Assembly: GCA_022538095.1 (NCBI GenBank)
Contig: JAKYXN010000030.1
Location: 1 to 64,000, forward strand
Origin: Puniceicoccaceae bacterium K14
GTDB taxonomy: Bacteria; Verrucomicrobiota; Verrucomicrobiia; Opitutales; Opitutaceae
Length of the DNA: 64,000 nucleotides
Direction: 5' to 3'
The position numbers were made by a program, and so were the translations under genes. A model generated the notes under the pieces. It had not been told where the DNA came from and ran no database searches. It saw nothing but the letters and a program-made list of their open reading frames with translations. Positions 1,287-37,126 of this stretch are shown in pieces (position 1 is the first letter of the stretch; every line of letters starts with the position of its first letter).

Positions 1287-4200
1287 ATGGAAGTTCAGAA
1301 AGAACCAATCGCTATTGTTGGAATAGGGTGTCGCTTTCCAGGTGGAGCATCGAGTCCTAAAGCATTTTGGAATCTATTGAAACGTGGCAAAGACGCTATT
1401 GTCGATATCCCGAAAGATCGATGGGATGTGCGTCGTTTTTATGACAAAAACCCTGATAAACCGGGAAAGACTTACGTCAAGCAAGGCGGATTTTTAAAGG
1501 AGAAAATTGATCGTTTCGACCCATTATTTTTCGGGATTTCGCCTCGCGAAGCTGAGACGATGGATCCTCAGCAACGCTTACTTTTAGAGGTTACGTGGGA
1601 AGCATTTGAAGATGCGGGCATCCGAATGGAGCAAGTCCGGGGGAGTAGGACCGGCGTTTTTATCGGAGGCTTTTGCTTGGACAGTATGCTGTTACGATTG
1701 GGTGCTTTAAATCGGGATTTCGCTGACTCACATTCCGCTGCTAGCTCGACGATGACGATATTGTCGAATCGAATATCGTACATATTCGATCTTAAAGGTC
1801 CAAGTGTAACCATGGATACAGCATGTTCATCATCATTGGTTGCGACTCACTATGCATGCCAGAGTATTTGGAGTGGCGAAGCTGATACAGCATTAGCTGG
1901 TGGGGTAAATGTAATGTTACGCCCTGAGTTTCCGATTATGATGAGCAAGGGGAAGTTTCTCTCTCAGCATGGTCGTTGCAAGGCCTTTGATGCTGATGCC
2001 TCTGGTTACAGTAGAGGAGAAGGCTCGGGAATCGTTGTGCTAAAGCCTATGTCGAAGGCTGAAGAAGACGGAGACCGCATATACGGATTGATTAAAGAAA
2101 CTGGAGTCAATCAAGATGGGCATACTACAGGGATATCTCTTCCAAATTCTAAATCTCAAGAAGCACTGGCTCGCGAAGTGTACCGCAATGCCGGAGTGAG
2201 CCCCGGTGAAATTGAATATGTGGAAGCACACGGTACAGGGACTCAAGCTGGTGATCCTGCAGAAATCAACGCTCTTGATCGAGTATTGTCTGAGAATAGA
2301 ACAGCAGGCTCAAAATGTTTGGTTGGTTCAGTGAAGACAAATATCGGGCACTTGGAAGCATCAGCTGGAATTGCGGGATTAATTAAAGGAGTATTATCAT
2401 TGTATCACGAAATGATTGTGGCGAATTTGCATTTTGAGAAGCCTAACCCAAAGATCCCATTCGATGACTTATGTATCCAAGTGGCCACTAAAAGGAAAAA
2501 TTGGAAGAGAAATGGAAAGGTGCGGTATGCTGGGGTAAACTCATTTGGGTATGGTGGTACGAATGCTCACGTTTTATTGGAAGAAGCCCCTGAAATAGTT
2601 GAAAAAAATGTTTTTCAGGAGGAATATGATGGGCCTTTTATACTACCAATTTCGGGTAAATGTGATGCGGCTGTGCGCGAATTGGCGGGCAAATATTCTT
2701 TTTGGCTTTCGACAAACACTAGTCCGAGTGCAATTTCGAACTTTTGTTATTCGATATCGCAGCGTAGATCTCATCATATTAATAGAACTGCAGTTGTCGC
2801 AAATTCTATAGATAATGCTCGAGAAAAATTACAGAGGTATAGTTCCGGCAAGAATATTGAGGGAGTTGTTCAGGGATCACTAGACTCTGAATTGCAGAAG
2901 CCGCTTGTTTTTGTCTACACGGGAATGGGGCCACAATGGTGGGCGATGGGGCGAGAATTGTATTCAAGCGAAGCGATTTTTCAAGAGACATTAAATCAGT
3001 GTGATGAAGTCTTTCGTGAGGAAGCTGGTTGGTCAATTTTGCAAGAAATGTTGGCAGAAGAGGGGCAATCAAAAATGTCTAGGACCGAGGTGGCTCAACC
3101 CGCAAACTTTATGATACAAAATGGCCTTACTGCTCTTTGGAAGTCCTGGGGGGTTGAACCGGATGCAGTGATTGGCCATAGTGTGGGGGAGGTTGGGTCT
3201 GCCTTTGCTTCTGGTGCATTATCTTTAAGGGATTCAATAAAGGTGAGCTATCATCGAAGCCGTTTACAGCAAACTTTGGCTGGTTTTGGGGGGATGCTGG
3301 CGGTAGGAATGTCGGAGGCGGATGCGTTAGACTTAATTGTTGATTTTGACGATGTATCCATTGCAGCGATAAATGCACCGAGTGCGGTAACGCTGTCAGG
3401 GGCTAGTTCGCAATTGGCAGATATTGAAAGTCGCTTAAAGGAGACTTCAACTTTTTGTAGACCCCTCAAAGTGGAGGTTGCGTATCATAGTAATCAAATG
3501 AATCCAATTGAGGGGGAATTAGTGGAGTGTTTGAAGTCTATTTCACCAAGGAGGGCACAGGTGCCACTCTATTCTACAGTGTCTGGCGACGGTGTCGATG
3601 GTTCTGAGTTTGGAGCCAAGTACTGGTGGAAGAATGTTCGAGAACCAGTTAGGTTTGCGGACGGTATCGAGAGTCTTTTGGAATCAGGGTACGCTCATTT
3701 CCTCGAGATTGGGCCACACCCAGTGTTGGGTCATTCTATAAAGGAAATAGCTCAGGCGAATTCTAAAAAAGTTTTTGTTACTTCCTCTCTGAGCAGAAAA
3801 TCGCCAGATAAATTGAGGCTGTTAGAGTCTTTGGGGGCTTTGTTTGTTCACGGTCACAACATTAACTGGGAGCAAATTATTCCAGCTGGCGGTCGGTACA
3901 CCACATTGCCTAACTATCCTTGGCAAAAAGATGTGTATTGGAGAGAATCTGAAGAATCTCGGCAGGATCGATTCGGATCTGAAGAATTGGTGTTTTTAAA
4001 TCAAAGAATAGCATCGCCTTTACCGACATGGACGGTAGAAGTGAATGACCAATTTTTCCCGTTTTTGGAGGATCACGTGGTTAACAAACAAGTTGTATTC
4101 CCTGGTGCCGGGTACATTGAAATTGGTTTTTCTTTGAGCCGTAAGAGAAGCGGTAAGGAGAAAGTTTTGCTCTCTGATCTTCGTTTCAGCAACATGTTGG

Positions 4201-7200
4201 TCATTGAAGGTGGAGAATCTCAGGAGCTAAGCTCAGTGTTTAACGAAGAAACTAACACATTTCATGCGTACAGCAGAAGTAAAAAGGCTGGGAGTGATTG
4301 GATATTACATGCAACTGGGGCAGTTATTGATAGCGGATATGCATTGAAAAAGACAGAGATCTGTTTGGACGAATTAAGGGCACTTTTTGTTGAGGAAATA
4401 GATGTTAATAGGATGTATTCTGATTTGGCGAAGAGAGGTCTGAATTACGGAGGGGCTTTTCGATGCTCAAAGCACGTGTGGATTAAAGAAAATGAAATTC
4501 TAGCGAAAATAATTGCACCTTTGGCTAGCAATAAATTTGTATTGAGTCCAGAAATACTCGATTCCGCTTTTCATAGTATCCTTGCAGTTGTTGACGGGAA
4601 TCAGCCATACGTACCGGTAGAAGTAGCCAAAGTGGCTCTCGTTAAAGAATTTGATGGGGAGTGTTGGTTACGAGGTGTTGTAACCTGTCGAGAAACCAAT
4701 GCATTTTATTGCGACTTTTATATGTACAACGGAGTCGGCGAACTTTGCCTAGAAGTAAAAAATGCCCACATGAAGGAGCTCCCCAATGTAGCCCAGTTGG
4801 GCAGGAGCAACCTAGAGGGATTGATGTATGCTCCAAGCTGGGAAGAGTACACTCCACGTGCGAATGCGAGTGATTATCTTGGTACAGAGGTTGTGGTTAT
4901 TTCTAATGATGATCCCTTTGTTGCAGCTGTTTGCGAGCGTATGACTGCGACGGGGGTAAAATTCACAAGAGTGGGTTCGGAACGACGATCTGAAGTAATA
5001 CCTTCTGCGGGCATCTCTATGGAGAGTAAAGAGGGTGAGGATTTAGAGTTGTTTCTAGGGAGGTATAAAAAAAGTGATTTGGTACATTTGCTATACTTAC
5101 TACCTCTTAGTGATAGGGTCGATGACCTAGATTTTGACGAAATGGTTTCTTCTTGTATGAGTGTTACCAATGTGGCTCGCTCGATTCAAAAAATCGGATT
5201 GAAGTGTACTTTAACTTTGGTTACAAAAAACTCACAGGTCTTGGGTTCCGAAATTGGCCAAAAGCTTGAGATCGGAAATTGTGCATTGTGGGGCTTCGGG
5301 GCAGTAATTGAAAACGAATGCCAAGGCGTGAATTGTCGTATGGTTGATATTGATGGGAGATTGCCATCGTTTTCTGGTTGGTTCCAGTGCTTAATGGATG
5401 TTAATGTTAAAGATGTTGTATTTCGCTCCGGTAAGGCATTTGTGCGATCGCTGAAGCGAATCGACTCAGAGAGTGTAGGCAATTTAGAACCCGAACTTGA
5501 ATTAATTTCAGAGAATGATCAATTTGCGGTCCAGCAATCTGATTTAAGGAAGACTAATGGTGTCGAGTTTATAAATACTGATCGCGAGCTTCCAGCGGTT
5601 GATGAATTAGAAGTGAAAGTGCATTCCGTTTGTTTGTCTCCGAAGCTTGGGAATGCACCAGGCAGCAATGAGTATTTAAATGGAAAACTTAATAGTGAAG
5701 TTTTTGGAGTTGTTGTTGGAATCGGGGACAACGTTGAGCCTAGATTGCTTGGCAAACATGTGTTGTTTAAGCATGACAAAGAGTTACGTCGTTATGTCCG
5801 CGTTTCGTGTGCGAAGGCAATTTTGAAGTTAGGTATAGAAAACAATGAAAGTCTTTTCCTTTTTAGCGATTTAGCGTTAGCTTACGTTGCACTCGTAAAG
5901 ATAGCACAGTTAAGAAAGGGCGAGAAAGTTCTTATTCATGAAGCTGGCAGTTCTTTGGGGTTGGCAGCGCTTAAAATCGCTGAAAATGCCGGGGCAGAAC
6001 CGTTGCTAGTTGCCGGGGATGATGATCAGATAAATTACTTGAGATCGATACAAGATAGAAATGTGTTTGATTCTCGTTACATGGGCTTTGCAGAAGAGAT
6101 TCGCTCTGCTATAGGGGGGGCTAAGGTTGATGTGCTGTTTAACCGACTACTTGACGATTGCTTTCAAGAAAGCGTTTCGACTCTCTCTCATTTTTCTCGT
6201 TGTGTAGACCTTGGGAATCGTCAGGAGCGATTCAATGTAGATGAAATTTTGAGAAAGAATATTTCCTACACGCGTGTAGATTTCGATCGTATGTTTGAAG
6301 TTGATACAGGTTATTTGATGGAGGTGTGTTCGGAGCTTAAGGAAAAAATTGTTGATGAGTGCGATTTTGAGATGCCAACTAAATATTGGCCTGTTTGCAA
6401 TTTGAAGGCGGCGATTAATTCTCTTGAAGGGACTCGTTTGGTCGAGCGAGTTGTCATTGGTTTCCAAGATGAGCCTGTTGAAGTGCGAGTCGTGAAAAAA
6501 ACTCAAAAAAAATCTAAGTACCCTGGCACGTATATTATTACTGGTGGAACTGGAGGGTTTGGGCTCGAAGTAGGGCGTCACTTGGCTCAGAATGGTGCAG
6601 ATAGAGTTTTTCTACTGAGTCGTCGAGGAGTATTGTCCGAACAGGTGGATTGGCCGGAGCAAATGAATGGTGAGATAGTGCCAAGAGCTCTTGACGTGAC
6701 TCAGAAAGATCAAGTAGCTGCCTTAATTGAAGAAATTAGCCAACATGAGTCGCCATTGCGAGGTGTCGTACATGGAGCTATGGTGTTGGAAGACCATTTT
6801 TTGGAAGATTTGAATAAAGAAAATTATTCAAAGGTAATGGCTCCGAAAATTAAGGGGACCATGAACCTGTACGAATTGACTCGCGATTCAAATTTGGATT
6901 TTTTTGTAGCATTCTCTTCAATTTCTTCGCTCATTGGAAATCGAGGACAAGCAAATTACATCGCAGCAAACGCATTTTTGGATACGTTTTGCCATGCTGC
7001 CGCTGTAACTGGGTATCCAGCGAAGACAATCAATTGGGGTGCTTTAGCTGAAGCGGGTGTGGTCGCACGAAATGTTAAGGTTGGAGAACTCTTAGAGCAG
7101 GAGGGCATCAAAGGTCTTTCAACTTCGATAGCCTTATCGGCTTTTGATTATGTATTGAATTCAAATTTTAGGCAATTGGGTTTTTTTGATGTAGATTGGA

Positions 7201-7580
7201 GTGCCTGGTCAAAAGTTAATTCTTCCGTGGGCAATTCTTCACGATTGTCAAACCTAGTGGATACTCAACATGACGGCGAAAAATTAGCTCTAGCAGATGA
7301 AATCTATAAAACGCTACGGGATCTTAGAGGTGATGAAAAATTCGAATACATCGAAGCTCTCGCGAAGAAAGGGCTCGGTTCAGTCTTAAAAATTCCCAGC
7401 GATAAAATCGATTCAAATCAGGTTTTGTCAGAGCTTGGAATCGATTCACTACTCCTTATTGAGTTGGCTCTTACAATCAAAGATGATTTTGGAATCAATA
7501 TTCCAGCTGCTGAATTGACGAAGTATCCCAATATAAAGGCCCTTACGGAAAATATAATTGTCCGATTGGAAGGAGTTTAA
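1287..7580 (+). CDS. single-module type I polyketide synthase (KS-AT-DH-ER-KR-ACP)
   Basis: A 2097-residue iterative-type polyketide synthase that would build and reduce an acyl chain on its own carrier domain. Visible domains in order are: ketosynthase 1-430 (active Cys180 in DTACSSS, His in EAHGTGTQAGDP and KTNIGHLEASAG); acyltransferase about 540-860 (GHSVGEV near 630); dehydratase about 905-1200 (His in EDHVVNKQVVFPG, Asp in EILDSAFHS near 1090); a structural linker; enoylreductase about 1425-1740; ketoreductase from 1746 (TGGTGGFG, Tyr in QANYIAANAF); and acyl carrier about 2000-2097 (Ser in LGIDSLLLIEL). There is no thioesterase and no C-methyltransferase. The enoylreductase nucleotide motif is eroded (GSSLGLAALKIA). 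The next gene, 25 bp on, encodes a methyltransferase that may release or cap the product. The product is unknown; a reduced fatty-acyl-like chain is the best inference. Confidence 0.93.
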   Translation: MEVQKEPIAIVGIGCRFPGGASSPKAFWNLLKRGKDAIVDIPKDRWDVRRFYDKNPDKPGKTYVKQGGFLKEKIDRFDPLFFGISPREAETMDPQQRLLLEVTWEAFEDAGIRMEQVRGSRTGVFIGGFCLDSMLLRLGALNRDFADSHSAASSTMTILSNRISYIFDLKGPSVTMDTACSSSLVATHYACQSIWSGEADTALAGGVNVMLRPEFPIMMSKGKFLSQHGRCKAFDADASGYSRGEGSGIVVLKPMSKAEEDGDRIYGLIKETGVNQDGHTTGISLPNSKSQEALAREVYRNAGVSPGEIEYVEAHGTGTQAGDPAEINALDRVLSENRTAGSKCLVGSVKTNIGHLEASAGIAGLIKGVLSLYHEMIVANLHFEKPNPKIPFDDLCIQVATKRKNWKRNGKVRYAGVNSFGYGGTNAHVLLEEAPEIVEKNVFQEEYDGPFILPISGKCDAAVRELAGKYSFWLSTNTSPSAISNFCYSISQRRSHHINRTAVVANSIDNAREKLQRYSSGKNIEGVVQGSLDSELQKPLVFVYTGMGPQWWAMGRELYSSEAIFQETLNQCDEVFREEAGWSILQEMLAEEGQSKMSRTEVAQPANFMIQNGLTALWKSWGVEPDAVIGHSVGEVGSAFASGALSLRDSIKVSYHRSRLQQTLAGFGGMLAVGMSEADALDLIVDFDDVSIAAINAPSAVTLSGASSQLADIESRLKETSTFCRPLKVEVAYHSNQMNPIEGELVECLKSISPRRAQVPLYSTVSGDGVDGSEFGAKYWWKNVREPVRFADGIESLLESGYAHFLEIGPHPVLGHSIKEIAQANSKKVFVTSSLSRKSPDKLRLLESLGALFVHGHNINWEQIIPAGGRYTTLPNYPWQKDVYWRESEESRQDRFGSEELVFLNQRIASPLPTWTVEVNDQFFPFLEDHVVNKQVVFPGAGYIEIGFSLSRKRSGKEKVLLSDLRFSNMLVIEGGESQELSSVFNEETNTFHAYSRSKKAGSDWILHATGAVIDSGYALKKTEICLDELRALFVEEIDVNRMYSDLAKRGLNYGGAFRCSKHVWIKENEILAKIIAPLASNKFVLSPEILDSAFHSILAVVDGNQPYVPVEVAKVALVKEFDGECWLRGVVTCRETNAFYCDFYMYNGVGELCLEVKNAHMKELPNVAQLGRSNLEGLMYAPSWEEYTPRANASDYLGTEVVVISNDDPFVAAVCERMTATGVKFTRVGSERRSEVIPSAGISMESKEGEDLELFLGRYKKSDLVHLLYLLPLSDRVDDLDFDEMVSSCMSVTNVARSIQKIGLKCTLTLVTKNSQVLGSEIGQKLEIGNCALWGFGAVIENECQGVNCRMVDIDGRLPSFSGWFQCLMDVNVKDVVFRSGKAFVRSLKRIDSESVGNLEPELELISENDQFAVQQSDLRKTNGVEFINTDRELPAVDELEVKVHSVCLSPKLGNAPGSNEYLNGKLNSEVFGVVVGIGDNVEPRLLGKHVLFKHDKELRRYVRVSCAKAILKLGIENNESLFLFSDLALAYVALVKIAQLRKGEKVLIHEAGSSLGLAALKIAENAGAEPLLVAGDDDQINYLRSIQDRNVFDSRYMGFAEEIRSAIGGAKVDVLFNRLLDDCFQESVSTLSHFSRCVDLGNRQERFNVDEILRKNISYTRVDFDRMFEVDTGYLMEVCSELKEKIVDECDFEMPTKYWPVCNLKAAINSLEGTRLVERVVIGFQDEPVEVRVVKKTQKKSKYPGTYIITGGTGGFGLEVGRHLAQNGADRVFLLSRRGVLSEQVDWPEQMNGEIVPRALDVTQKDQVAALIEEISQHESPLRGVVHGAMVLEDHFLEDLNKENYSKVMAPKIKGTMNLYELTRDSNLDFFVAFSSISSLIGNRGQANYIAANAFLDTFCHAAAVTGYPAKTINWGALAEAGVVARNVKVGELLEQEGIKGLSTSIALSAFDYVLNSNFRQLGFFDVDWSAWSKVNSSVGNSSRLSNLVDTQHDGEKLALADEIYKTLRDLRGDEKFEYIEALAKKGLGSVLKIPSDKIDSNQVLSELGIDSLLLIELALTIKDDFGINIPAAELTKYPNIKALTENIIVRLEGV

Positions 7581-7605
7581 ATTTAACAATTCAAGTAAAT
7601 AAGAT

Positions 7606-9018
7606 ATGCATACAGAAGAAAAAGTTTCAGGAGTGGATAGCCTAGTTAGCTTTGAAAATAGCCAAGGGAAGAAAGGGCGCGGTACTTTAATTCATATTAC
7701 TAGGACCGGAGTTGTATTTGAGGTGTATAATCCTTATTCTATCGTTCAGTTAAGTGAGGTTTTGCCATATCTGAGCATAGTTCGAGGAAATCGAACTATT
7801 TATAAGGGGCGAGCCGTTGTTAGCCAGATACTTACAACTGGTTTGATGGTAATTGTATCCATGACTTTGATAGATCCTTGGTCCGATTTGCTCGGCTTAA
7901 GACCAGGTGGGGAGCTGAAGATGGAAACCGAGCGTTTTATATCAGATTGGATAAGTAGCAATAGAATACAGCCGGATTACCAATTAGCGGTGAGTCAAAT
8001 GAGGAATTTTTTAGGAGAGGTCAGTCGATGGCTAGATGAGGCGCAGGTTGGAAATCAGGTTAACCTAAGAAGTGCGCAATCTGAAGAATTGCTAAGTGGT
8101 TATTACGAGGAAGTTTCTCCCGCTATTGGCCCTCAATTTGACGAACTTTTCGCCCGTTTTGAGGTAGTTGCCGAGAACGTTCCTCTAGAGGATATTAGCG
8201 TTCACAAGTCGTTTGCTCGAAGAGAACTCCACCCGTTGATTTTGTGCTCACCATTTGTAAATCGTTCATATTTGAAGCCTCTTGGTTATGCCGGAGACTA
8301 TGAAATGGTAAATATGATGTTGCTAGAGTCAGAGGTTAAGATTTCTAATATATATGCTAAAATAGTGGACACGTATTACATAAATGCATCCGCCCCATTG
8401 GCTCATCGTAACCGAATTGATATGCTGGAAGAGCGTTTGGCACAAGAAGCTGAAAGAGTAATCGAGGATGAGGAGAGACTGTTTACAGTTTTAAACATCG
8501 GCTGTGGTCCTGCTTCAGAAGTTCGCCGATTTATTAAAAATAGTCGTTTGTCAAATCATACATCTCTTAAACTGATGGACTTTAGCGATGAGACATTGGA
8601 TTTTACTAGAGGAAAAATTCAAGAAGCAATGAATGAAAGTGGTAATAAGCCTACCGTAGAATTTGTTCATAAATCGATAGATCAGCTATTACAGGAAATA
8701 CAAAGCGAGGCTCAAGTAAGTTTTGGCCAGTATGATATGGTTTATTGCGCTGGATTATTCGATTACTTTTCAGACCAAATATGCAGTAGGCTCGTTTCTA
8801 TGTTTTATTCTTGGGTGCGGCCTGGTGGACTTGTATCTGTAACCAACGTACACGATAGTAACCCAAATAAAAATTTGATGGAACATTTGTTAGAATGGTA
8901 CCTCGTTTACCGCGATGATAATGGAATGCTTAAATTGGCTCCGAGGGATATAGAATCTGAGCTGGATCATGACAATACAGGTGTCAATGTGTTCCTAGAC
9001 ATTCGTAAGCCAGAATAA
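7606..9018 (+). CDS. PhcB-like SAM-dependent methyltransferase with PilZ-like N-terminus
   Basis: A 470-residue cytosolic protein. Residues 1-110 have a PilZ-like beta-barrel pattern, but the usual c-di-GMP motifs (RxxxR and D/NxSxxG) are not intact. The C-terminal part is a class I methyltransferase with the SAM-binding motif LNIGCGPASE at residue 296. Between them lies a conserved-looking block (FARRELHPLI, LKPLGYAGDY) that I associate with proteins annotated as extracellular-factor 3-hydroxypalmitate methyl ester synthases (PhcB of Ralstonia). The inferred role is methyl esterification of an acyl product from the upstream polyketide synthase to make a diffusible signal. Its stop overlaps the sensor-kinase start by one base (TAATG), which indicates translational coupling. 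The family call rests on remembered motifs and gene order. Confidence 0.75.
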   Translation: MHTEEKVSGVDSLVSFENSQGKKGRGTLIHITRTGVVFEVYNPYSIVQLSEVLPYLSIVRGNRTIYKGRAVVSQILTTGLMVIVSMTLIDPWSDLLGLRPGGELKMETERFISDWISSNRIQPDYQLAVSQMRNFLGEVSRWLDEAQVGNQVNLRSAQSEELLSGYYEEVSPAIGPQFDELFARFEVVAENVPLEDISVHKSFARRELHPLILCSPFVNRSYLKPLGYAGDYEMVNMMLLESEVKISNIYAKIVDTYYINASAPLAHRNRIDMLEERLAQEAERVIEDEERLFTVLNIGCGPASEVRRFIKNSRLSNHTSLKLMDFSDETLDFTRGKIQEAMNESGNKPTVEFVHKSIDQLLQEIQSEAQVSFGQYDMVYCAGLFDYFSDQICSRLVSMFYSWVRPGGLVSVTNVHDSNPNKNLMEHLLEWYLVYRDDNGMLKLAPRDIESELDHDNTGVNVFLDIRKPE

Positions 9019-11597
9019 TGCTGAAAAACGATTTCATAGACTCGAATTTGGCACCAGGATACCGGTTGGAGGATGGTGAACTCCGGTTGCGACGGTACCG
9101 TATTGCGTGCATACTTTCAATATTAGGAACAGCTTCGGGAATATCTCTTGATTACATCATGTATCCAAAAGTTTTTGTCGAACTTGGGATGACCCGATTC
9201 TTTGCAGTATTGATTGTGTCCATTTTGTATGGGGTAAGCCGCTCTCAGTTTTGTAAATCGAACATTGTATTTTTTAATTTCGTATGGGCCATAACTATAA
9301 ACTTATCTATAGTTGCGATGGTTTATTTTACTGGTGGTGTTAGTTCGCCTTATTATGCGGGGTTAAATTTAGTCTTGCTCGCAGCGGGTGTTTTACTGCC
9401 GCTAACACTTTTTGAGACTCTTTTCATCGGTATAGCCACGATATTTATGTATATTTTGGCCTGTATCTTCAAAGGGAATTGGACTGATGAGTGGAGCTTG
9501 CTGTTTAGTAACTGCTTTTTTGTGTGTTTGACTGGTTTAATAAGTACCACATCGAGCTATTTTAATTCTCAAGCGCGTCAGACCGATTTCAATCTTAGAC
9601 ACGAATTGGATTCGAGAAATCGGGAATTAGAAGACATGGATCGATTAAAGTCTGACTTCTTTTCGAATGTGAGTCATGAGCTTAGGACGCCTCTCACGCT
9701 AATACTTTCTCCAATACAAGATCTGTTGCGTAAGCCTGAGTCGCTTTCAGACCGAGCTGCTGAATTGATTGCGACCGCAAGGGATAATTCTTTGCGACTA
9801 TTAAAATTGGTGAATGATCTCTTGGAAGTCATCCGCTTAGAAGAGGGTAAAGAACAAATTGAGATGAACCCTGTCGACTTGAATGGCTTGGTTTGTGGAC
9901 TCACGGATTCGATCCAACACCTAGCGGACCAGAGGGGGATTTCTTTGGTCAATGAGTTGCCAGATTCAATTTCTATAGTTGACGGAGATATCTATGCCTT
10001 TGAGAGAGTATTTTTAAACTTGTTGAGCAACGCAGTAAAATTTACTCAAAAGGGAGGTTCTATATACGTAAGAGGACAACTGTTGAATGATCGCACAATA
10101 ATTGAAGTTGTGGACACGGGAATCGGTATCAAAAAAGAGGATATCGCCTATATATTCGATAGGTTTCGTCAGGTCGATAGTTCGAGTACTCGAAAGTACC
10201 GTGGGAGTGGATTAGGTCTAGCTCTGGTCAAAGATTTGACTGAACGGATGAGCGGCGAAATTTCTGCAGAGAGTGAAGAGGGTGTAGGAACCACGATGAA
10301 GGTATCTTTCCCTACAAGTAAGTCGACCCAACCGATTGTGGAAGTCAGCGAGGCAGCTCCCAAGTTGGATATAATTCAGAGTATTCACCAGTCAGCGGAG
10401 CATCGAGCGGCTTTACCAATAGACTCGCCGTTTGAGGGGATGGAAGGTCGACCTTCATCAGGTAAAGGGCCAACATTGATGATTGTAGATGATGAGCCCG
10501 CGATGCGGCAGTATTTAACGAGTGTATTGGAGGTTGATTATCGTATTTCTCTTGCCCGGGATGGAGAGCATGCCCTTGAACTCGCTCGAAAATACAAGCC
10601 GGAATTGATGTTGTTAGATTTGATGCTTCCTAAGATGGACGGCCACGAAGTCTGTAAACGTCTTAAGGCGGATCCAAAAACAAGGGGAATCAAGATAGTG
10701 CTTCTTACCGCACGAATTGATGAAAATGCGAAGATCATTGCACTCGACAATGGGGCGGACGATTTTCTTACAAAACCCTTTAGTCGAACGGAAATTGAAA
10801 CCCGCTTGAGAAACCTACTTGAGGCATCGAAGCTCGAGACTGAAATCAGAGACCGAAACAAGGAATTAGAAAAAACGCTGTTAGAGTTGAAGAGAACGCA
10901 AGCTAGCCTAGTTCAAAGTGAGAAGTTGAATGCTCTTGGTAGTTTGTCTGCTGGATTGCTTCATGAAGTAAACAATCCTCTTAATTACGTAATTGCAGCT
11001 TTGCAGATGTTAACGGTGGAGACTGGGAAAAGCGCTAACGAGAATTTGCGAGAATACTTAACGGATATAACTGAAGGTGTTGATCGTATTAGAAATATAG
11101 TGACGGATTTACATACCTTTGCCCACCCGTCGGAGCTTGATAAACAAAAGATATTTTCTTTGTCTGCAGCGGTTGAGAGTGCGAGACGATTCACATCGCA
11201 CGAGAGGGATGGCGTGCTAATCGAACAGGATTTAAGAGGGAATGATAAGTTGATTGGTTCTCAAGGCCATGTGATACAAGTTCTTGTCAACTTGATTAGC
11301 AATGCCATTAAGGCGATAAAGGCGTGCGATGATGGTCGCGTAGGGGAAGTAAAAATACTGAGCGAGAATCATGGCGATCGTGTTCACGTTATTGTGAAAG
11401 ACAATGGGATCGGAATGAGCGATGAGGTAAAGAAAAACATATTCGACCCGTTTTTTACCACTAGAGACGTCGGAGAAGGTATGGGTCTGGGCCTTAGCAT
11501 TTGCCATACAATTATGAAAAATCATGGAGGCCGTATAATCGTTGAAAGCGATAAGGGCTCTGGGACTGCGTTTACTCTGGATTTACCGTCCGAATAG
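9018..11597 (+). CDS. PhcS-like membrane hybrid histidine kinase with two kinase cores
   Basis: An 859-residue inner-membrane sensor. The first about 190 residues hold roughly six hydrophobic helices with little periplasmic domain, including FTGGVSSPYY, as in sensors of lipophilic ligands such as PhcS. The first kinase core follows (phospho-acceptor His220 in SHELRTPL; N-box NLLSNAVKF; G-boxes DTGIGI and GSGLGLAL). A receiver domain has Asp534 in LLDLMLPKMDG. A second kinase core has His649 in LLHEVNNPLNYV, N-box NLISNAIKAI and GMGLGLSI. Two complete kinase cores flanking a receiver are unusual. The gene overlaps the methyltransferase gene and precedes two response-regulator genes, so it is the likely receptor for the methylated acyl product. 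It could instead sense membrane state. Confidence 0.85.
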   Translation: MLKNDFIDSNLAPGYRLEDGELRLRRYRIACILSILGTASGISLDYIMYPKVFVELGMTRFFAVLIVSILYGVSRSQFCKSNIVFFNFVWAITINLSIVAMVYFTGGVSSPYYAGLNLVLLAAGVLLPLTLFETLFIGIATIFMYILACIFKGNWTDEWSLLFSNCFFVCLTGLISTTSSYFNSQARQTDFNLRHELDSRNRELEDMDRLKSDFFSNVSHELRTPLTLILSPIQDLLRKPESLSDRAAELIATARDNSLRLLKLVNDLLEVIRLEEGKEQIEMNPVDLNGLVCGLTDSIQHLADQRGISLVNELPDSISIVDGDIYAFERVFLNLLSNAVKFTQKGGSIYVRGQLLNDRTIIEVVDTGIGIKKEDIAYIFDRFRQVDSSSTRKYRGSGLGLALVKDLTERMSGEISAESEEGVGTTMKVSFPTSKSTQPIVEVSEAAPKLDIIQSIHQSAEHRAALPIDSPFEGMEGRPSSGKGPTLMIVDDEPAMRQYLTSVLEVDYRISLARDGEHALELARKYKPELMLLDLMLPKMDGHEVCKRLKADPKTRGIKIVLLTARIDENAKIIALDNGADDFLTKPFSRTEIETRLRNLLEASKLETEIRDRNKELEKTLLELKRTQASLVQSEKLNALGSLSAGLLHEVNNPLNYVIAALQMLTVETGKSANENLREYLTDITEGVDRIRNIVTDLHTFAHPSELDKQKIFSLSAAVESARRFTSHERDGVLIEQDLRGNDKLIGSQGHVIQVLVNLISNAIKAIKACDDGRVGEVKILSENHGDRVHVIVKDNGIGMSDEVKKNIFDPFFTTRDVGEGMGLGLSICHTIMKNHGGRIIVESDKGSGTAFTLDLPSE

Positions 11598-11664
11598 AGT
11601 GTTAAATTGAATACAAATAAGAATTAACTGAAAACTTTAATATTAAAACAAGACCACACCTACT

Positions 11665-12786
11665 ATGACAGATACAAATAGCAAGATCGGCATACTTTAC
11701 GTTGATGACGAAGATAAGGCACTGAAATACTTCAGCCGAGCTTTCGAGGAGGAATTTCTCATTTTTACCGCTAGTAGTGTTAGCGAAGCAAAGGAAATTC
11801 TTGGTGAAAAATCTTCTAAGATAGGTCTCTTAATTTCTGACCAGCGAATGCCTGAAGAGAAAGGCGTCGAATTACTTAAGTACGCTCGTAAGGAATATCC
11901 TGAGATCATTCGAGTTTTGACCACTGCGTATTCCGATTTGGATGACGCGATCGAAGCAGTGAATAATGGTGAGATTTTTCGGTATATAACGAAACCGTGG
12001 AATATTGCTTCTTTAAAGCTTGAGTTGAGGCAATCGATTCAATTCTTCGAATTGCGCAGGGAGCGGAACCAGCTTATGCGTGAGAAGATTAGCACTTGGC
12101 AAAGGTTAGAGGGCGTGAATCGGGTTCGGGATTTATTGATGATTTCATCGAGTATTTCCCAAACGAAAGGAGCGACTCAAGCGATTCAATCGTTTATTGA
12201 GCAAATACCTACTAAGGGGCAGAAGGAGCCTGCCGAAGTTTCTTTTGATTCGTGGGGTCTGTTAAAAAGCGAACTTTCTCAAATGATAGAAGTTTCAGGC
12301 GAGCTTCAGGGTGTAATTGCGAATGCTGCTGCGGGAAATTGTGGTGAGACCATTGATATTGCCAAAGTTGTAAAGGACTCGTGCCCGAGTTTCGTTAACT
12401 TGGGGTCTGTTGAGGAAGTATCACTAGAGTCGGGGGATAAAAGCCGTATCGATGCTATATTCTCAAATTTGTGTTCTTGGATTTCATCTCGTTTCTCCGA
12501 GGGCAAGTTGCAAATCGAAGCGGATTCGGAGTATGCAAAGATTTGTTTCGAGATGAGCTCATCTGATAACAATTGGGGCGAGGATTCAATATTGAACATT
12601 CCAGTGAATCTATTGTCTGCTTTCTTGCTGAGCTATGACCAGGGTGGTTTTCTTGAATTGGGGCAAAAGCAGAGTGGAGCTTTTTCGATCGAGCTTAAGC
12701 TTCCAATGGAGAGTAAAGAGGTGGTCGACGCCGAGTTTTCGACTCAATGGTTGGATCGTATCTTAACTAAATTCGAAAATTGGTAA
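11665..12786 (+). CDS. PhcQ/PhcR-like response regulator with degenerate kinase-like C-terminus
   Basis: A 373-residue protein. The N-terminal receiver carries the acidic pair in YVDDED, phospho-acceptor Asp59 in ISDQRMP, Thr/Ser in LTTAYSD and Lys in YITKPW. The ISDQRMP form is typical of the PhcR/PhcQ and RpfG-like receivers. From about residue 125 a helix leads into a region with the length and fold order of a histidine kinase core but without an H-box His or an intact ATP-binding N-box (compare FSNLCSWISSRF). It therefore probably receives phosphate and signals by protein contact, as proposed for PhcQ. The gene lies 67 bp after the sensor kinase gene. No DNA-binding domain is visible. Confidence 0.75.
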   Translation: MTDTNSKIGILYVDDEDKALKYFSRAFEEEFLIFTASSVSEAKEILGEKSSKIGLLISDQRMPEEKGVELLKYARKEYPEIIRVLTTAYSDLDDAIEAVNNGEIFRYITKPWNIASLKLELRQSIQFFELRRERNQLMREKISTWQRLEGVNRVRDLLMISSSISQTKGATQAIQSFIEQIPTKGQKEPAEVSFDSWGLLKSELSQMIEVSGELQGVIANAAAGNCGETIDIAKVVKDSCPSFVNLGSVEEVSLESGDKSRIDAIFSNLCSWISSRFSEGKLQIEADSEYAKICFEMSSSDNNWGEDSILNIPVNLLSAFLLSYDQGGFLELGQKQSGAFSIELKLPMESKEVVDAEFSTQWLDRILTKFENW

Positions 12787-13043
12787 TAGTTAGTTGAATG
12801 CCTTAGTTTCTAATAGTGGATAATATCTGAGTGTTATTGGTGGTTAATTGCTGAGATGTAATAGTTGAAGTGTTGACATTTAGTGGATGTTTTCCAGGGG
12901 TTGTTGCTTATAAGTGAAAAACTCATTTTATCGCTCGTTTTGAGCGGTGGATTGGGGATTCGCTTTAATCTAATCTTTTGCGAAACAACTCTATCTCTTA
13001 AGAATGCTCCGAATCACAATCTCGGAACGTTCTTAGTTTACAA

Positions 13044-14672
13044 ATGGACCAACCTTTTGATTCTTTGGGCAACTCTCCCTTTCCTAGGGCTTTAGACAAT
13101 GAGATCTTCTCTGTAACGAACGTGCAATATAAAGGTACTAAAATACTATATGTGGATGATGAGCCAATGGCTCTAAAGTACTTTGTTAAGACGTTCGCAA
13201 ATGATTTTGATGTCCTGACTGCAGCTAGCGTTGATGAAGGGCTCGAATTGTTAGAAAGTAAGTCAGAGCAAATTGGCGTTTTACTGACTGATCAACGGAT
13301 GCCCAAAAAAACAGGTGTTGAGTTGCTCAAGTCAGTGAAATCGAAATGGCCTGATATTGTTCCGTTATTGATAACTGCATATTCGGATATTGATGATACT
13401 ATCAAAGCGGTTAACGAAGGTCACATCTACCAGTACATTCGGAAGCCCTGGTATCCAGATCAGCTCAAGATCATGCTTCTGCAGGCGATTCAGGAATATA
13501 ATGAGATCTCGTATAATCGGAAATTAGCGGAGACTAACAAGAAGCTTGAAGATGCGCATCGACTTCAGGAGGAGTTTATACAGATGCTTAGTCACGAAGT
13601 TCGTACTCCTATTAGTGTTTCGCTTTCCTTGTCCGAAGAATTGTTGGAATCGAATCTAAATGAAGAGCAAAAGGAGCATGCTTCATCAATTAAGTTGGTA
13701 AACTCTGCGTTGGCCAACTTGTTGGATAATACACTTGATTACTCTAAATGGGTAAATGGGCAGCTCAAATTGGTTGAAAGAAGCTTCAGCCTAAAAACCT
13801 TGCTGAAGCAGTTGGACCATACGTTTAGTCTGCAGTTGAAGATGGAGACGATCAACTATGAGGCTCATGTCTCTGAGAATGTAACAAACGACCTTCTAGG
13901 GGATCCTGATCGATTATTGCAAATTTTGATTAATTTAATAGGAAACGCTATCAAGTTTACACCCGTAGGAGGAACGATTCAACTCCATGTGGCGAAGCTG
14001 GAGAGCGCTAGCGAGCATATTGTTTTGCGTTTCGCTGTACGTGACACGGGTGAAGGGATAGCGGGAGAAGCCATTGGTAAGCTGTTCAAGCCATTTTCGC
14101 AATTGCAAGAAGGAAAGGTTGGCACTGGTTTAGGGCTTTCGATCTCCAAGGAACTTGTGTCCATGATGGGAGGAGAAATTGGGGTAGCAAGCGATATTGG
14201 CAAGGGCTCTGAATTTTGGTTTACCGTGAGCTTGAGAGCTCAAGAAACTCCAATACAAGAAGCCCAAGAACCTAGTTTCAAGAAGGTAGAAAATAAGTCG
14301 GTTCTGCTTGCGGACGATAATCGAATTAGCCGCTACATGGCTCAGGAATTGTTGGGAAAATCCGGATACGATGTAGATCTTGCGAATAACGGAGTTGAGG
14401 CACTGAACAAAGCGAAGGAGACTCAATATTCTGTCATTCTACTTGATTGCCAAATGCCTGAAATGGATGGAGTAGAGGCTACCTCTAGAATGAGGGCGGA
14501 AGGGAAGAACCAACACACTCCAATTGTTGCGATAACTGCGATGCCGGTAGGAATGCTGGAAGATCGGTGGTTAGCTGCGGGAATTAATGCCTATATTCAA
14601 AAGCCGTTTGATCGCTCAAAGTTTATTGAAACAATAAACTATTGGAGCGACTCAAGTAATATCGCTCGGTGA
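13044..14672 (+). CDS. PhcR-like receiver-kinase-receiver hybrid
   Basis: A 542-residue cytosolic phosphorelay protein. The N-terminal receiver (about 30-155) has Asp83 in LTDQRMP and closely resembles the receiver of the preceding gene, suggesting duplication. A full kinase core follows, with His184 in MLSHEVRTPI, N-box NLIGNAIKF, DTGEGI and GTGLGLSI. The C-terminal receiver has Asp468 in LLDCQMPEMDG and Lys in IQKPFD. PhcR of Ralstonia also joins a receiver to a kinase; the second receiver is an addition here. A 257-bp gap separates it from the previous gene, so it may have its own promoter. There is no output domain, so the final target is not encoded in the cluster. Its end lies 11 bp from the convergent gene. 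Confidence 0.8.
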   Translation: MDQPFDSLGNSPFPRALDNEIFSVTNVQYKGTKILYVDDEPMALKYFVKTFANDFDVLTAASVDEGLELLESKSEQIGVLLTDQRMPKKTGVELLKSVKSKWPDIVPLLITAYSDIDDTIKAVNEGHIYQYIRKPWYPDQLKIMLLQAIQEYNEISYNRKLAETNKKLEDAHRLQEEFIQMLSHEVRTPISVSLSLSEELLESNLNEEQKEHASSIKLVNSALANLLDNTLDYSKWVNGQLKLVERSFSLKTLLKQLDHTFSLQLKMETINYEAHVSENVTNDLLGDPDRLLQILINLIGNAIKFTPVGGTIQLHVAKLESASEHIVLRFAVRDTGEGIAGEAIGKLFKPFSQLQEGKVGTGLGLSISKELVSMMGGEIGVASDIGKGSEFWFTVSLRAQETPIQEAQEPSFKKVENKSVLLADDNRISRYMAQELLGKSGYDVDLANNGVEALNKAKETQYSVILLDCQMPEMDGVEATSRMRAEGKNQHTPIVAITAMPVGMLEDRWLAAGINAYIQKPFDRSKFIETINYWSDSSNIAR

Positions 14673-23420: not shown

Positions 23421-26400
23421 TTATTTTCTAAGTTCGTAAAGTTCGATGAGTGCGATACCAGTAGTATCGTTTTCACCACTTACGAAAACTGTGTAGGCCC
23501 CAGGGGCTAGCTCTATAAGTAGAGCAGCGTCTAGGCTGTTGTCTTCCAAGGAGAATGCACCCACTTTAGCAGTCGCATTGGAAATTGCTGTTAAGTCCTT
23601 TGAGGCTGACCACTTGGCGTTTTTCGCTACTAGTTTTCCGTCTTGGTCGAGGACTTGAAGTACAGGGTTTTTCAAAAATTCTGTTATCCCCAATTTTTGG
23701 AGACCAGGACCGACTGCCCTAATGAGAAGGGTACTCGTTTCTGAGCCACTAATGACGACGCCTGGAATAGCGATACTGGCTCCTGTTCCTACTCGAGCTC
23801 GTGTCGATAGATTGATAAGGCGGCTTTCACTTTGATCGACTTCATAGACTTCTACCATAGCTAGGCCCGTGGTCGCGTTGGCGCCTTGAAGTACCGCTGT
23901 GTACGTCCCTGGTTCTAATGTGAGAAGTAGTGCAGCATCGTTTGAACTTTCTTCTATGTTGAATGCACCCAGCTGATTTGAAATATCCTGTATTACTGTT
24001 TGGTTTGCCGATTTTGCCCATCCGGCATTGCTTTCGATAACCGTGTCGCCCTGGAACACCGTTAGAACAGGAGATTGGAGTGAATTATCTAATCCAAAAG
24101 ATTTTAAGCTGGGTCCGATTCCGCGAATCAATAGTTGTTTAGCTTGAGTTCCTTCAATTACAAAACCTGCGATGATAACATCGGCATCAGTCCCGGCTTC
24201 GGCCCTTGTTGAGAGATTAGCCATTCGGCTATCTGTATTTGTGCTAAGCGATGGAGCAGAAACTGGAGCTAGTAATTGTGAACCGGACGATGGGGTTGTG
24301 TTCGTCGCTACCAAAATTTCGATACCGCTAATTTTTGGATTCTCGATCCCTTGAAGGAGCGTGATGTTAATCTCACCATCGGAAATACTTACTGGGAGGG
24401 ATATGATGGCTGCTGATTCCGCTCCTACTGAATCGAAGATATCTAGGTTTTCAGCTTCTAGATTTCCTTCGATATTGACGCTAAACACACGTGCGCCACT
24501 GCTCATCGTCCCCACGTAAATTTCCGCGAAATGAAGGTTTACGACGTACTCACCGTTTGCTACTTCGAACGAGTATTCGAGTTCTGGCAAACCATTGAAA
24601 TCGAATCGCTCGCTTTGGTAAACCGTATCATCTTCGGTACCGCTGATATCAGTTGATATTTCGAAAGTGTTTCCTGTATTGAACCCGTAATCAGCGCTCC
24701 AAATATTGCCGAATGTATCTGTATACTCGTTACCACCAGCGTTAATTCGTAAGTCAATTTGAGTTTCGGTTGCTCCAGCGACACTAACGATAGTAGACGT
24801 ATTGCCAGCAAGATCTTCGGCGTAAACATTGTATGAATAGGCAGTTTCTTGCTCTAAGCCAGTGTCCTCAAACTCTGTAGCTAGACCTGAAACGGTTCCA
24901 ATAGGAGTTCCATCCCGGGATATTTGATAGTTAGCTATACCTATATCGTCTGTAGAGGGTGACCAAGATAGAGCGATCGATGATGTGGATGTGGAGACAA
25001 TTTTCAAGTCACCAGGAGAACTCGGAGGTGTTGTGTCTAGCGGTAACTCGAGAGTCGTGACGGAGAGGCTCGCGGCTGCAGAGATATTTTCAGAACTATC
25101 CCGCGCATAGATTTCGTATGTGTAAGTGGAATTTGGTGAAAGGCCGAGATCTTGGAGATTTAGTTCGCTTGTTGTTTCAACGAGTAACTGATCGCGATAG
25201 ATTAAATAAACTGAGACTCCAATATTGTCGGTGGATTCGATCCAAGTTAAGTCTGCGAAATTATAACCAATTGAAGACGCTGCGAAACCACTCGGGCTCG
25301 TAGGCGCTTCATTGTCTGGTGGACCTTGGACAGTGATTTCGATACCGCTGATCTTTGGATTTTCAAACCCCTCTATCATTTGAATGTTTAGTTGTTCATC
25401 AGTGACTATCGTATCAAACGATACCACATAGGCAGTGTTGGCACCTACTGCTTTAAATATATCAACGTTCTCTTGTACTAGGGTGTCTTCAATATTGAGG
25501 CTAAATACACGTCCACCCTCGAATTGAGCTCCTTCATAAATTTCTGCAAAATGAAGATTTACTTGGTATTGGCCATTGGCTAGATCGATATTGTATTCAA
25601 GATTCGGGTCTCCAGAAAAATCAAAACGTTCACTTTGGTAAATCGCATCATCTTCAGTTCCCGAAATTTCATTCGTCGATGCGAAGGTATTGCCAGTGTT
25701 GAAGGCTGTATCGGCCATCCAAATATTCCCGAATGTGTCTGTGTACTCGCCACCACCGGCGTTTATACGAATATCTGGTTGGCTTGTTGTTGATGCAATT
25801 AGGCTAGCAGAAGGCGATAGATTCTCAGCTAAGTCGATAGCATAGACCTCATATAAATAATCCGTGCCGAGGGTGAGCGTCGAGTCAACATATGTTGTAG
25901 TGAGCCCAGAAACACTCGTTAGAGGAAAGCCGTCTCGGTGAATGTCGTACCTGGATATGCCTGTATTATCAGTGGAAGTTGCCCAAGATAGAGTTATTGT
26001 AGACGTTGTTGAGCTCACTGCGACTAGAGGGCTAGGCTGGCTTGGAGGCGTTGTATCTAAGGGGAGTTCCGATGTAGTGACTTGAAGAACTACAGCATTG
26101 GACAGGTTGTCCGAAGGGTCAGTGGCGAAGATTTCATAGTTATAGTTTGTCTCTGGCTCTAGGCCTTGATCTTCAAATGTGAGGCTCTCTGTGCTTCCAA
26201 CTAGGACTTGATCGCGATAAACCAAGTAGGATACTGAACCGAGGTTATCTGTGGATCCAGTCCAAGAGAGTGTCACACTATCGAATGAGATCGCATCTGC
26301 GAGGAGGTCTGTTGGATCCGTAGGGACTTCTGCATCCGGTGGTCCCAGGTCAATTACTTCGATGCCACTTATCTTTGGACTTTCGATGCCATGTATGAAT

Positions 26401-29400
26401 TCGACGTTGAGTTGCTCGTCTGTAACGGTCGTGGGGATTGAAACGACATAAGCTGTTTCAGGCCCAACGGCCTCAAATATATCAATGTTTTCCGCTTCCA
26501 ATACGCCTTCGACTGAAACGCTGAATACGCGTGCGTTCTCGAACATGGTTCCGACAAATATTTCTGCGAAGTGCAAATTCACGAGATATCGGCTATTTGG
26601 TACGTCAAGTGCGTATTCCAATTCAGGCGACGAAGAAAGGTCATAACGTTCGCTTTGGTAGATACTGTCATTTTCAGTCCCAGTGATCTCACTCGATACT
26701 TCAAAGGTGCTTCCAGTGTTGAAGCCAAAGTCAGCGCTCCAAATTCTACCTAGGCTATCGGTGTATTCGTTTCCTCCTGTGTTTATGCGGAGATCGGGAT
26801 AGCTCTCGGTTGTGGCACTAATGCTTGCAGGTGGCGATGCATTGTTCGCAAGGTCAATAGCGTAGATTTGGTAGTTGTAGGCTGTACTCAGGGTGAGGCC
26901 CGTATCCTCAAATTCGGTTGTAATGCCGGATACAGCTGAAACCAGTGACCCATCACGATAAATTTCGTAGCTAGCAATACCTGTATCGTCAGTGGAGGCC
27001 GCCCAAGAAATTGAAATGGTAGACATCGACGTCGAGTCGATTGTGACGCTTCCTGGAGCAGTAGGGGCGGTACTGTCTAATGGAAGCTCAGTTGTGGTGA
27101 CTTCGATGCTTATGAATTCGGAGAGATTGGCAGACGGATCGCTCGCGTAGATTTCGTAAGCGTAAATCGTCTCGGGTAGTAGCCCGATGTCCGAGAAGGT
27201 CGTTTCGATAGTCGTATCGATCAGTATTTGGTCGCGGTAAATAAGATAAGTGACAGGACCGACGTTGTCTGTTGAAGCTGTCCAACTCAGGGTTACTTCA
27301 TTGTACGAAACTGTATCAGCCGAAATGTCGGTTGGATCAGTTGGAATCTCGAGATCCGGCGGCCCCATTGCGATCACTTCGATTCCGCTTATTTTAGGGC
27401 TTTCAACACCTTGTATGAATTCGATATTGAGTTGCTCATCACTTACTGTGGTGGAGAATGAAAGGATGTAGGCGTTCTCACCGCCAACAGCTTGGAATAT
27501 GTCTATGTCCTCTGCGACCGGCGAGCCCTCTATTTCGACGCTAAATACGCGGGCTCCTTCAGCCATAGTCCCTTCGAAGATTTCAGCAAAGTGCAAGTTT
27601 ACTGTGTATTCATTATTGGGTAGATCAAAGGAGTATTCTAGATTTGGAGAGCCTACCTCGTAATAGCGTTCGCTTTGGTAGATTGAATCATCTTCCGTTC
27701 CGTCAATCTCGTTTGAAGTTTGGAAGGAACCTCCATTGTTAAATCCGTAATCTGAGTACCAAATATTGCCTAACGTGTCCAAATAAGTGGCTCCACCTGC
27801 GTTTACTCTAACGTCAGCTTCTGTTGCTAGGCTAGGTTCGTATTCAATGATTAATGGAGGCGATGTTGGGCCTTTGATACCGTTGACGTCAATTAAGACT
27901 GCTTGCAGCCGGTTTATTCCGCTTTTCTCGTCCTGAGCGCTTAGTGGGACTGATATGTCGACATAACCGTCGCTTCCGATTACTGCGTCGAAATCAAAGA
28001 AATAAACCACGGTGTTGGCCTCAAGTGGCTCGATGTTGTATCCACCGTTGACAGCTCCTTCTGTGTAAAGTCCTCCGTCTGTATGGTAAAGCGATACCTG
28101 TGAGCCTTCGGGACCTGAGACTCGAATTGTCTGCGGATCATTTGATGTGACTGGGGACATTGCGTCAATATGCTGGATGGTTGGCTGCAAAGGTTTTCCA
28201 TTCATAAGATAGCCATCGCATGCATCGATATCGCCTGAAATATGGGATAGACTCGTTTTTTGAACTGAGCCGTCGCTAAAGTAAATCGATACAGTGCTTC
28301 CGGTTAGCTCTAATCCGGAAACGCTGGCGCTATGGTTTTCGCCAGGAGCGGCCACTCCTTTGACGCTCGTAGGGTCTATGTCGATTGAGAATGAGAAAAA
28401 ATCACTGGGTTGGAATTCCGTGAAGTTGATTTCCAATCCATTGTATCCGTCATTGGCATCGACGCCATTATTAGGATCGAGGTAGGCGTGAGTAACTGCG
28501 CCTGCATCTGAATCCGAGTCTGGAGTGAACACTTTTGTGACTGGGTCACCGGCTTGACCGTTGACATCGAATACATTGTCTGGATACAGGGCTGTGCTGA
28601 GATCGATAACTACTTTTTCAATTAGTTGTCCATCTGTAGAAAGGTTTTCGATGTAAAAACTCTCATCAGAATAAGTGCTTGCTTCCAGCAGAGTGTTTTG
28701 TGGCGGGTCGATCTGGAAATAAGCAGCAGAGCTTGATGCAATTGGTTGGATTTCGAACACATCCCAAGTTGCGGTAAAGGATGGGGTCGTGGGATTTCCT
28801 GTAGTGGCAATTAGACCGATTGCGAGTGGCGGGTCGCTCATTAGCGAGTGCATGAGGTCGCCGCTGGCGAGTAATTGGTCACCGACAGGGATTATGGTTT
28901 CGCTTCCTTCCAACCTGTACTTGGCTTGGATTGTTCCTGACTGGGGATCGATATCGAAGAAGAGCTCTATATAGTTGGAATTGAGTATGCCAGATTCAGT
29001 GGAAATTGTATTTGAAAGAATGTTACCATATTCTTCGTGTACCACTTCTATTCCACCATTACCTAGATTCGCGTTAACCGCGAGTTTGATGTAATTGTCC
29101 TGATCACCGGTACCAATGTATATGCCGTGTGATTGATCTCCCTGTGGAGCTCCGCCAAAAAATGGACCTGAGATTCCGACGCGTATTTCGTAGGGATCCA
29201 TATATTGGTTGGAAGTAATCCCAAAGTTGAATGCGTTTAGTTGGTTGTTGGAATTTCCGGTTGCAGTTCCGGCGTCGACGGATGCAATTGTGAAAAGCCC
29301 TGCGGTTCCACCAGCAATGAAATTGTCTGGATCATAGAGATCCAAGTATTCGTCACCGTCGTTCTTCATTATTCCGGTCATTCCGACATCGAAGAAAGTG

Positions 29401-34607: not shown

Positions 34608-34658
34608 AACATTGCTCAGCGGATGAATGCTTTTGGGTGTTCGCTGTTTGGGGGAACC

Positions 34659-35054
34659 CTAGGCGAGTGAAATTAGTGGCTGGCCTTCCTCAACTGACTG
34701 AGCGGACTGTACAAGAATTTCAGATACGACACCTGATTGCGGCGCATTTACGATTGTATTCATTTTCATCGCTTCTAGAGTGAGAAGCTTATCACCGGCA
34801 TCGACTTGCTGACCAGTTTGAACATCTATCGACACTATGGTGGCAGCCAACGGGCTGGATACTGTACCTGGACCTGCTAAAGTAGTCGTCGGTTTAGCTG
34901 GAGCTGGAGCGGTCGGAGCAGCGATAGCGGTATTAGCGGAAGTTGCTCTTGCTGGAGTGGCTGCACTGTGCCCCGCGTTGCTATGTTCTTCGCCCAGTAA
35001 CTCGACTTCGACGTCGTATGATTTACCTTCGATCGTTATTCTAAGTTTTTTCAT
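34659..35054 (-). CDS. mmdC: biotin carboxyl carrier subunit of the decarboxylase
   Basis: A 131-residue carrier. The biotinyl domain occupies the last about 70 residues, with biotinylated Lys97 in LEAMKMNTI and the partner turn GQQVDAGDKL. An Ala/Pro/Thr-rich flexible linker (about 30-62) lets the domain swing between the carboxyltransferase and the membrane subunit. The N-terminal MKKLRITIEGKSYDVEVE is typical for such free-standing carriers. Without a biotin carboxylase gene nearby, it is expected to serve the decarboxylase pump. No Shine-Dalgarno sequence is visible. Confidence 0.92.
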   Translation of the reverse strand: MKKLRITIEGKSYDVEVELLGEEHSNAGHSAATPARATSANTAIAAPTAPAPAKPTTTLAGPGTVSSPLAATIVSIDVQTGQQVDAGDKLLTLEAMKMNTIVNAPQSGVVSEILVQSAQSVEEGQPLISLA

Positions 35055-35099
35055 GTTTAGAGTTTATTGGTAATTGTATAAAATTTATAAGTTTGGTTC

Positions 35100-35477: not shown

Positions 35478-35513
35478 AGATAGTTTCCTTTTTAGTAGCC
35501 TTGCAGCCTGGAT

Positions 35514-37067: not shown

Positions 37068-37126
37068 CGTATTTATGTATCTGATATGGTTCTGTTATAG
37101 GGTAAGTAATGTTTAGCAGAGTCGCT

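Follow-up and report, generated by a model that had tools for sequence, protein, structure and literature searches.

The window analysed here, a 64,000-nucleotide stretch of the genome of Puniceicoccaceae bacterium K14 (phylum Verrucomicrobiota; contig JAKYXN010000030.1, positions 1 to 64,000), carries a gene cluster in which a type I polyketide synthase (PKS) precedes relatives of the phc quorum-sensing genes. Five genes follow each other in the same direction between positions 1287 and 14672, as a first-pass annotation had proposed; all are open reading frames (ORFs) of the + strand, with domains confirmed by profile search. The ORF list and the domain search define the first gene as the PKS (1287–7580, 2097 amino acids (aa)). 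It is followed by a PhcB-family S-adenosylmethionine (SAM) methyltransferase (MT; 7606–9018, 470 aa), a PhcS-like hybrid sensor kinase (9018–11597, 859 aa), a PhcQ-like receiver protein with D59 and no matched DNA-binding domain (11665–12786, 373 aa) and a PhcR-like REC-HK protein with an added C-terminal REC (13044–14672, 542 aa; D83, H184 and D468). The PKS and MT genes are separated by 25 bp, and the coupling of the next two genes through TAATG, also proposed earlier, is present at 9016–9020, where the kinase start overlaps the MT stop. Since the first base of the window is also base 1 of the contig, genes further upstream of the PKS are outside its view. A scan for promoters and terminators gave a signal at or below the level of shuffled sequences and was not used. 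The PKS–MT–kinase–receiver order is found again in related genomes, implying that the arrangement is not due to chance.

The MT comprises a predicted N-terminal β-strand domain (about residues 13–88) and a C-terminal class I MT domain. In our survey, which spanned the phylum of the window and Pseudomonadota, it is 40–46% identical over about 460 aa, that is, over its full length, to the MTs of phc operons in Burkholderiales; alignment with 27 MTs from named loci gave full-length identities of 41–46%, 40% being the lowest BLAST value. The named loci derive from a genome scan that retained the best 80 of 575 relatives; judged by their titles, almost all are Burkholderiales, with one Candidatus Nitrotoga, a dominance that results from the first row of the query being a Paraburkholderia protein. 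Many of these loci, including that of Cupriavidus necator (L086), encode an MT (~463 aa), a kinase (~443), a REC-HK protein (~377) and a REC protein (~335), i.e. the order phcB-S-R-Q; in the top 18 (L060–L077, all Paraburkholderia except for one Burkholderia) the third position holds a short receiver gene or gave no match. The PhcB of Ralstonia solanacearum is not among the loci, and those of Cupriavidus were designated phcBSRQ from the order of their genes, from where the His and Arg residues lie and from the report that C. necator JMP134 has a complete Phc system with products 56–75% identical to those of R. solanacearum GMI1000 (PMC2842291). Residue R22, affected by the R22C mutation in Ralstonia PhcB (PMC6989110), corresponds to R22 in C. 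necator and R25 in the window MT and is invariant in the MT alignment.

An IQ-TREE phylogeny of 47 MTs contains a branch (support 100/97) with the window clade and 14 named phc MTs on one side and the remaining MTs of the phylum on the other. The tree was drawn with a midpoint root from sequences of at least 150 bits and 350 aligned residues and predates the finding of genomes G813, G855 and G857; the 14 named loci were chosen out of 81 and also served for the sensor tree and the profile comparison described below. The window clade consists of 11 PKS-linked MTs and the MT of G438. Thus, instead of clustering with unrelated families, an outcome that would have spoken against the first-pass annotation, the MT groups with those of phc operons, and by its sequence it is a full-length PhcB homologue. 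A fold search of the Protein Data Bank with the MT model returned class I SAM methyltransferases (best E 2.4e-10) and named no substrate, TM-scores normalized to query length being at most 0.37 in the 50 rows listed. The model also shows a run of strands at the N-terminus (mean pLDDT 77.8); Pfam finds no PilZ there, and a PilZ c-di-GMP domain is not claimed.

Further relatives of the MT were encountered on plasmids and as paralogues. In the plasmid search an MT from Paraburkholderia graminis, 41.8% identical over 97% of the query, precedes a kinase and two receivers; each of the remaining 132 plasmid records matched a smaller part of the window MT. On P. graminis plasmid pPHS1_P, typed as conjugative, a Phc-type MT–kinase–receiver set is followed, after a few intervening genes, by a stretch containing PelD (L058:13983–29359). 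An Enterobacter ludwigii plasmid (L059:12727–15864) encodes, in a cluster with an HMG-CoA-synthase gene, a PKS protein whose end is ~27% identical to the window MT domain. Shorter MT paralogues (~320 aa) that lack the N-terminal domain occur in L053 (5860–9724; genome G190) and, similarly, in L054; in L053 the genes after the short paralogue encode a kinase and a receiver, which suggests that a further module of related type is present.

The kinase has the domain order HisKA-HATPase-REC-HisKA-HATPase, which can be divided into a PhcS-type membrane sensor (~1–200), HK1 (H220), REC (D534) and a PhcS-type HK2 (H649). Its earlier assignment as PhcS-like holds, but the protein is longer than PhcS through the extra HK-REC block. 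HK2 is 39% identical over 255 aa to the C. necator kinase, and this kinase half is 34–42% identical across the named loci. The His of the LLHEVN motif is H649 in HK2 and H231 in C. necator, numbered from the start that we chose; the published autophosphorylated His of PhcS is H230 (PMC11960443). For the sensor region, hhalign comparison of the 11 PKS-linked kinases with the 14 from named loci yielded a probability of 100, an E-value of 1e-43 and 24% identity over 225 columns, while all five column shuffles, the sole type of control, remained at a probability of at most 0.1. A crude hydropathy scan of the window sensor indicates approximately six membrane helices, the number that we presume for PhcS. 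Judged from these comparisons, the kinase bears a PhcS-type membrane sensor and a PhcS-type kinase with a kinase-receiver pair inserted between them. Its best NCBIfam match is LvrA, at 324 bits against a curated cut-off of 1200, and membership in that family was rejected.

The fourth protein is 42% identical over 197 aa to the product of the PhcQ-position gene of C. necator (L086) and the fifth 26% identical over 374 aa to that of the PhcR-position gene. Both regulators anticipated by the first-pass annotation are therefore present, but in the reverse of the phcBSRQ order, with the PhcQ-like gene before the PhcR-like one. R154, a residue of PhcQ considered in the literature (PMC6989110), is V in C. 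necator; on visual inspection, an Arg three residues further on aligns with one in the window protein, a correspondence that we do not rely on. The domain search matched no LysR domain in the five cluster genes, and no genome search for PhcA was made. Overall, sequence similarity, gene order, the sensor profile comparison and the MT tree agree with the PhcB-, PhcS-, PhcQ- and PhcR-like assignments.

The PKS is a single module, KS-AT-DH-ER-KR-ACP, that presumably acts iteratively. Its AT motif is GHSVGE, which we take to be malonyl-type. The KS Cys, AT Ser, DH Asp and KR Tyr are kept in all 13 aligned PKSs (G813 and G855 were added to this alignment and the broken G857 was left out), and the KS His, DH His and ACP Ser are kept in an alignment of 11. 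The ER domain, encoded by about 4320–5175 of the PKS gene, behaves differently. Its NADPH motif is intact in six and altered in seven of the 13 PKSs, being altered in all six from the window's family, whereas it is intact in six of the seven others. Moreover, mean ER identity among the six window-family PKSs is 23%, compared with 73.5% for KS; among four PKSs from families f2 and f6 the corresponding values are 54.5 and 73.9%. The altered cofactor motif together with the low ER identity suggests that enoyl reduction has been lost in the window's family, which would make the product more unsaturated, and because the motif is altered in this family, signals may differ between lineages. In a KS-AT tree, the 13 cluster PKSs, fragments from G418 and G429 and the PKS of G627 form one group with a support of 100 in the SH-like approximate likelihood ratio test (SH-aLRT). 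A second PKS region is present elsewhere in the window's genome (L057; C220:30000–49999), where a 1079-aa KS protein lies beside ORFs of 3155 and 503 aa.

To follow the linkage across genomes, the MT was sought in three overlapping sets: 387 genomes drawn from the phylum, with 23 matches at E 1e-8; 372 from the order, with 18 matches at 1e-20; and 252 from the family, with 14 matches at 1e-30. An MT at least 50% identical to that of the window was found in 14 genomes (G000, G663, G339, G289, G407, G392, G433, G131, G039, G048, G626, G813, G857 and G855), and in all 14 a cluster-type PKS lies directly upstream on the same strand, 2–77 bp away as measured from mechanical ORF ends. Two of these clusters are imperfect: the PKS and kinase frames of G857 are in pieces, possibly through sequencing errors, and the cluster of G855 is split across two contigs within the MT. 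Identity to the window PKS decreases to 36% among the linked genomes, which carry five family labels of a single order (f1, f2, f6, f9 and f86). The gene order, which the earlier annotation had suggested seeking in other genomes, is thus kept across these families, and the PKS link is conserved in the window's clade. Furthermore, distances calculated for the MT, the sensor and the PKS across 11 clusters are correlated (r 0.82–0.90), with none of 2000 permutations reaching such values. This correlation reflects common inheritance and not interaction, as shared ancestry alone suffices to produce it.

A different PKS occupies the same place in G320, a genome from a distant class. Here, a 2603-aa protein (L047:1770–9581) with the layout FAAL-ACP-KS-AT-MT-KR-ACP directly precedes a phc-type MT and a hybrid kinase; FAAL is the name that we assume for its AMP-binding/DIP2-like pair. 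The domain search matched neither DH nor ER in this protein. A protein of this layout would carry out a single extension of a free fatty acid, with α-methylation and perhaps ketoreduction. G320 is the sole match among 148 genomes of its class, and its assembly is 86% complete. A TonB-dependent receptor is encoded downstream of the MT and kinase genes in L047.

We consider it reasonably probable that the cluster encodes a Phc-type quorum-sensing system in which the dedicated PKS supplies the acyl chain for a methyl-ester signal. This proposal draws on the findings described above: the order and homology of the genes, the retention of catalytic residues and of the PKS linkage, common inheritance and the different PKS at the same place in G320. 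In the proposed scheme, the single-module PKS, presumably iterative, would build the acyl chain from malonyl-CoA. The chain would then leave the ACP, a step that is a gap in the model, as the domain search matched no thioesterase in the PKS and no release enzyme in the cluster. The PhcB-type MT, to judge from its family, would convert the chain carboxylate to the methyl ester, and this hydrophobic molecule would exit the cell and accumulate. Finally, the hybrid kinase may bind the ester with its PhcS-type membrane sensor, as expected from homology, and phosphate could reach the PhcQ-like and PhcR-like receivers by way of the internal receiver, the second kinase or both.

Besides the absence of a release enzyme, a number of observations weigh against this proposal. 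Fifteen of the 23 MT-bearing genomes in the phylum draw have no adjacent PKS within the fetched regions (two contigs reach less than 5 kb upstream), and thus a Phc-type module can exist without a PKS; the other eight are six PKS genomes, G320 and G015, the last with a weak match only. In genus g201, none of seven genomes (five from the order draw and two from the family draw; MT 39–42% identical) has an adjacent PKS, and G438, located within the PKS clade on the MT tree on a long branch (42% identical), also lacks one; G417, represented by fragments only, was not judged. Conversely, G627 (97% complete) has a cluster-type PKS adjoining an aminotransferase gene and no MT match in the draw, and in G418 and G429, likewise without an MT match in the draw, the cluster-type PKS is cut at contig ends. 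A tree of 45 sensor regions, from which kinases under a score limit were dropped, departs from the MT tree: it separates the named phc sensors (100) from those of the phylum, which all fall together, and it does not unite the PKS-linked sensors in one clade, two changes being needed; 16 of the 42 inner branches are weak. The KR Tyr position of the G320 protein is His, and exact patterns gave no match in it for one KS His motif or for the AT Ser motif, so that its product is unsure. Lastly, the window's own genome contains no gene of the FadL family, considered below. Clusters without a PKS, which would have counted against the first-pass annotation, do therefore exist, namely in other modules of the phylum, in Burkholderiales and in G438; what stands is a PKS linkage kept within one clade, and the PKS accordingly marks that clade and not the whole family. 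On the MT tree the PKS label requires three changes, a number that would fit a single gain followed by a single loss, together with an independent gain in G320.

The PKS-free modules would also be expected if the PKS were an output of the circuit, for instance for a density-regulated lipid or antibiotic, and the MT methylated an ordinary 3-hydroxy fatty acid as in Ralstonia, where the Phc system regulates ralsolamycin, a product of PKS/nonribosomal peptide synthetase type (PMC9197120). However, the PKS gene comes first and close to the MT gene in every one of the 14 linked genomes, an unrelated PKS lies at the same place in G320, and no other biosynthetic gene recurs across families in the flanks of 12 loci, save a weak (24%) epimerase-family match downstream; with this evidence on both sides, an output role, the main rival to our proposal, appears unlikely. 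We regard as decidedly improbable a second alternative, namely that the product of the PKS and MT is a lipid for structure or storage, a methylated long-chain acyl compound whose synthesis the kinase controls upon another cue. The PKS layout does resemble that of mycobacterial lipid PKSs, the Pks2 model aligning over 7–2079 of the window protein below its cut-off, and a gene for a FadL/TodX-family outer-membrane protein adjoins the PKS in four relatives (G131, G433, G626 and G039; L034, L035, L186 and L187), being the only family member in each; the G039 copy has the other orientation and is 26–27% identical to the other three. Of eight further genomes checked, three (G663, G048 and G392) have a FadL-family gene elsewhere and five have none. 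These neighbours, which we also count in favour of the signalling proposal, fit a hydrophobic long-chain product in those four lineages and say nothing for the window, whereas a lipid function would leave aside that both the sensor domain and the MT are homologous to a known signal-synthase/sensor pair. A chance neighbourhood of functionally unrelated PKS and phc-type genes, with which the PKS-free modules and the three genomes with this PKS type but no MT match would agree, is so improbable given the 14/14 linkage over PKS identities down to 36% that we reject it.

With a dedicated PKS as the source of the signal chain, a wider picture can be drawn, about which we are more tentative and which we hold to be possible, no better than an even prospect: a lineage-wide quorum-sensing family in which the PKS writes the chain of a Phc-type ester, fast-diverging reduction domains and co-inherited PhcS-type sensors give lineage-specific signals, and a different PKS was recruited separately in G320.

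Two further features of the window lie beyond the cluster. A 2629-aa protein encoded at 23421–31310 has four malectin-domain stretches and an Fn3 match. The region 33093–42041 contains two methylmalonyl-CoA mutase subunit genes, a carboxyltransferase gene and a decarboxylase beta-subunit gene, which likely serve propionate metabolism and are outside the PKS cluster.

If the proposal is right, the bacterium may use a custom-built signal instead of a borrowed fatty acid, and the cluster would outline how lipid signalling can pass from borrowed to custom-built molecules, with a predictable class of product, a sensor available for testing and a natural series of lineages with altered reduction domains. 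In the literature consulted, Phc signalling belongs to Ralstonia and its close kin and employs 3-hydroxy fatty acid methyl esters. The genomes examined here place a synthase/sensor pair of this type in a further phylum, where it occurs with no PKS in some members and, within a single order, is linked to a PKS of its own. By title and opening of the abstract, none of the listed matches among open-licence PMC articles describes phc genes from Verrucomicrobiota or a link between phcB and a PKS, which is weak evidence of absence, and open-licence PMC articles containing both phcB and Verrucomicrobi concern other subjects by title.

The closest known system is the phcBSRQ quorum-sensing operon of R. 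solanacearum and Cupriavidus (PMC8578825, PMC2842291, PMC11960443, PMC6989110), with which the window cluster shares a PhcB-type MT of ~460–470 aa, followed by a kinase with the same type of membrane sensor and then by receivers without DNA-binding domains. The window cluster differs in having the PKS in front, in its hybrid kinase with the extra HK-REC block, in the reversed order of the PhcQ-like and PhcR-like genes, in the extra REC of the PhcR-like protein, in the lack of a LysR regulator within the cluster and in belonging to another phylum. The LvrA/LvrB phosphorelay of Leptospira (PMC13269768) is similar in that a kinase feeds a Rec-controlled kinase, LvrA also being the best NCBIfam match of the window kinase; the available text of that report mentions neither a methyltransferase nor a polyketide, and Leptospira genomes were not searched. 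Polyketides act as signals or triggers in Clostridium acetobutylicum (PMC5686105), and photopyrones and dialkylresorcinols have been named as signals (PMC12503165); the portions of these two sources available to us name no PhcB-type MT or PhcS-type kinase with them. Phc quorum sensing and polyketide signals are thus each known, and it is their combination that appears to be new.

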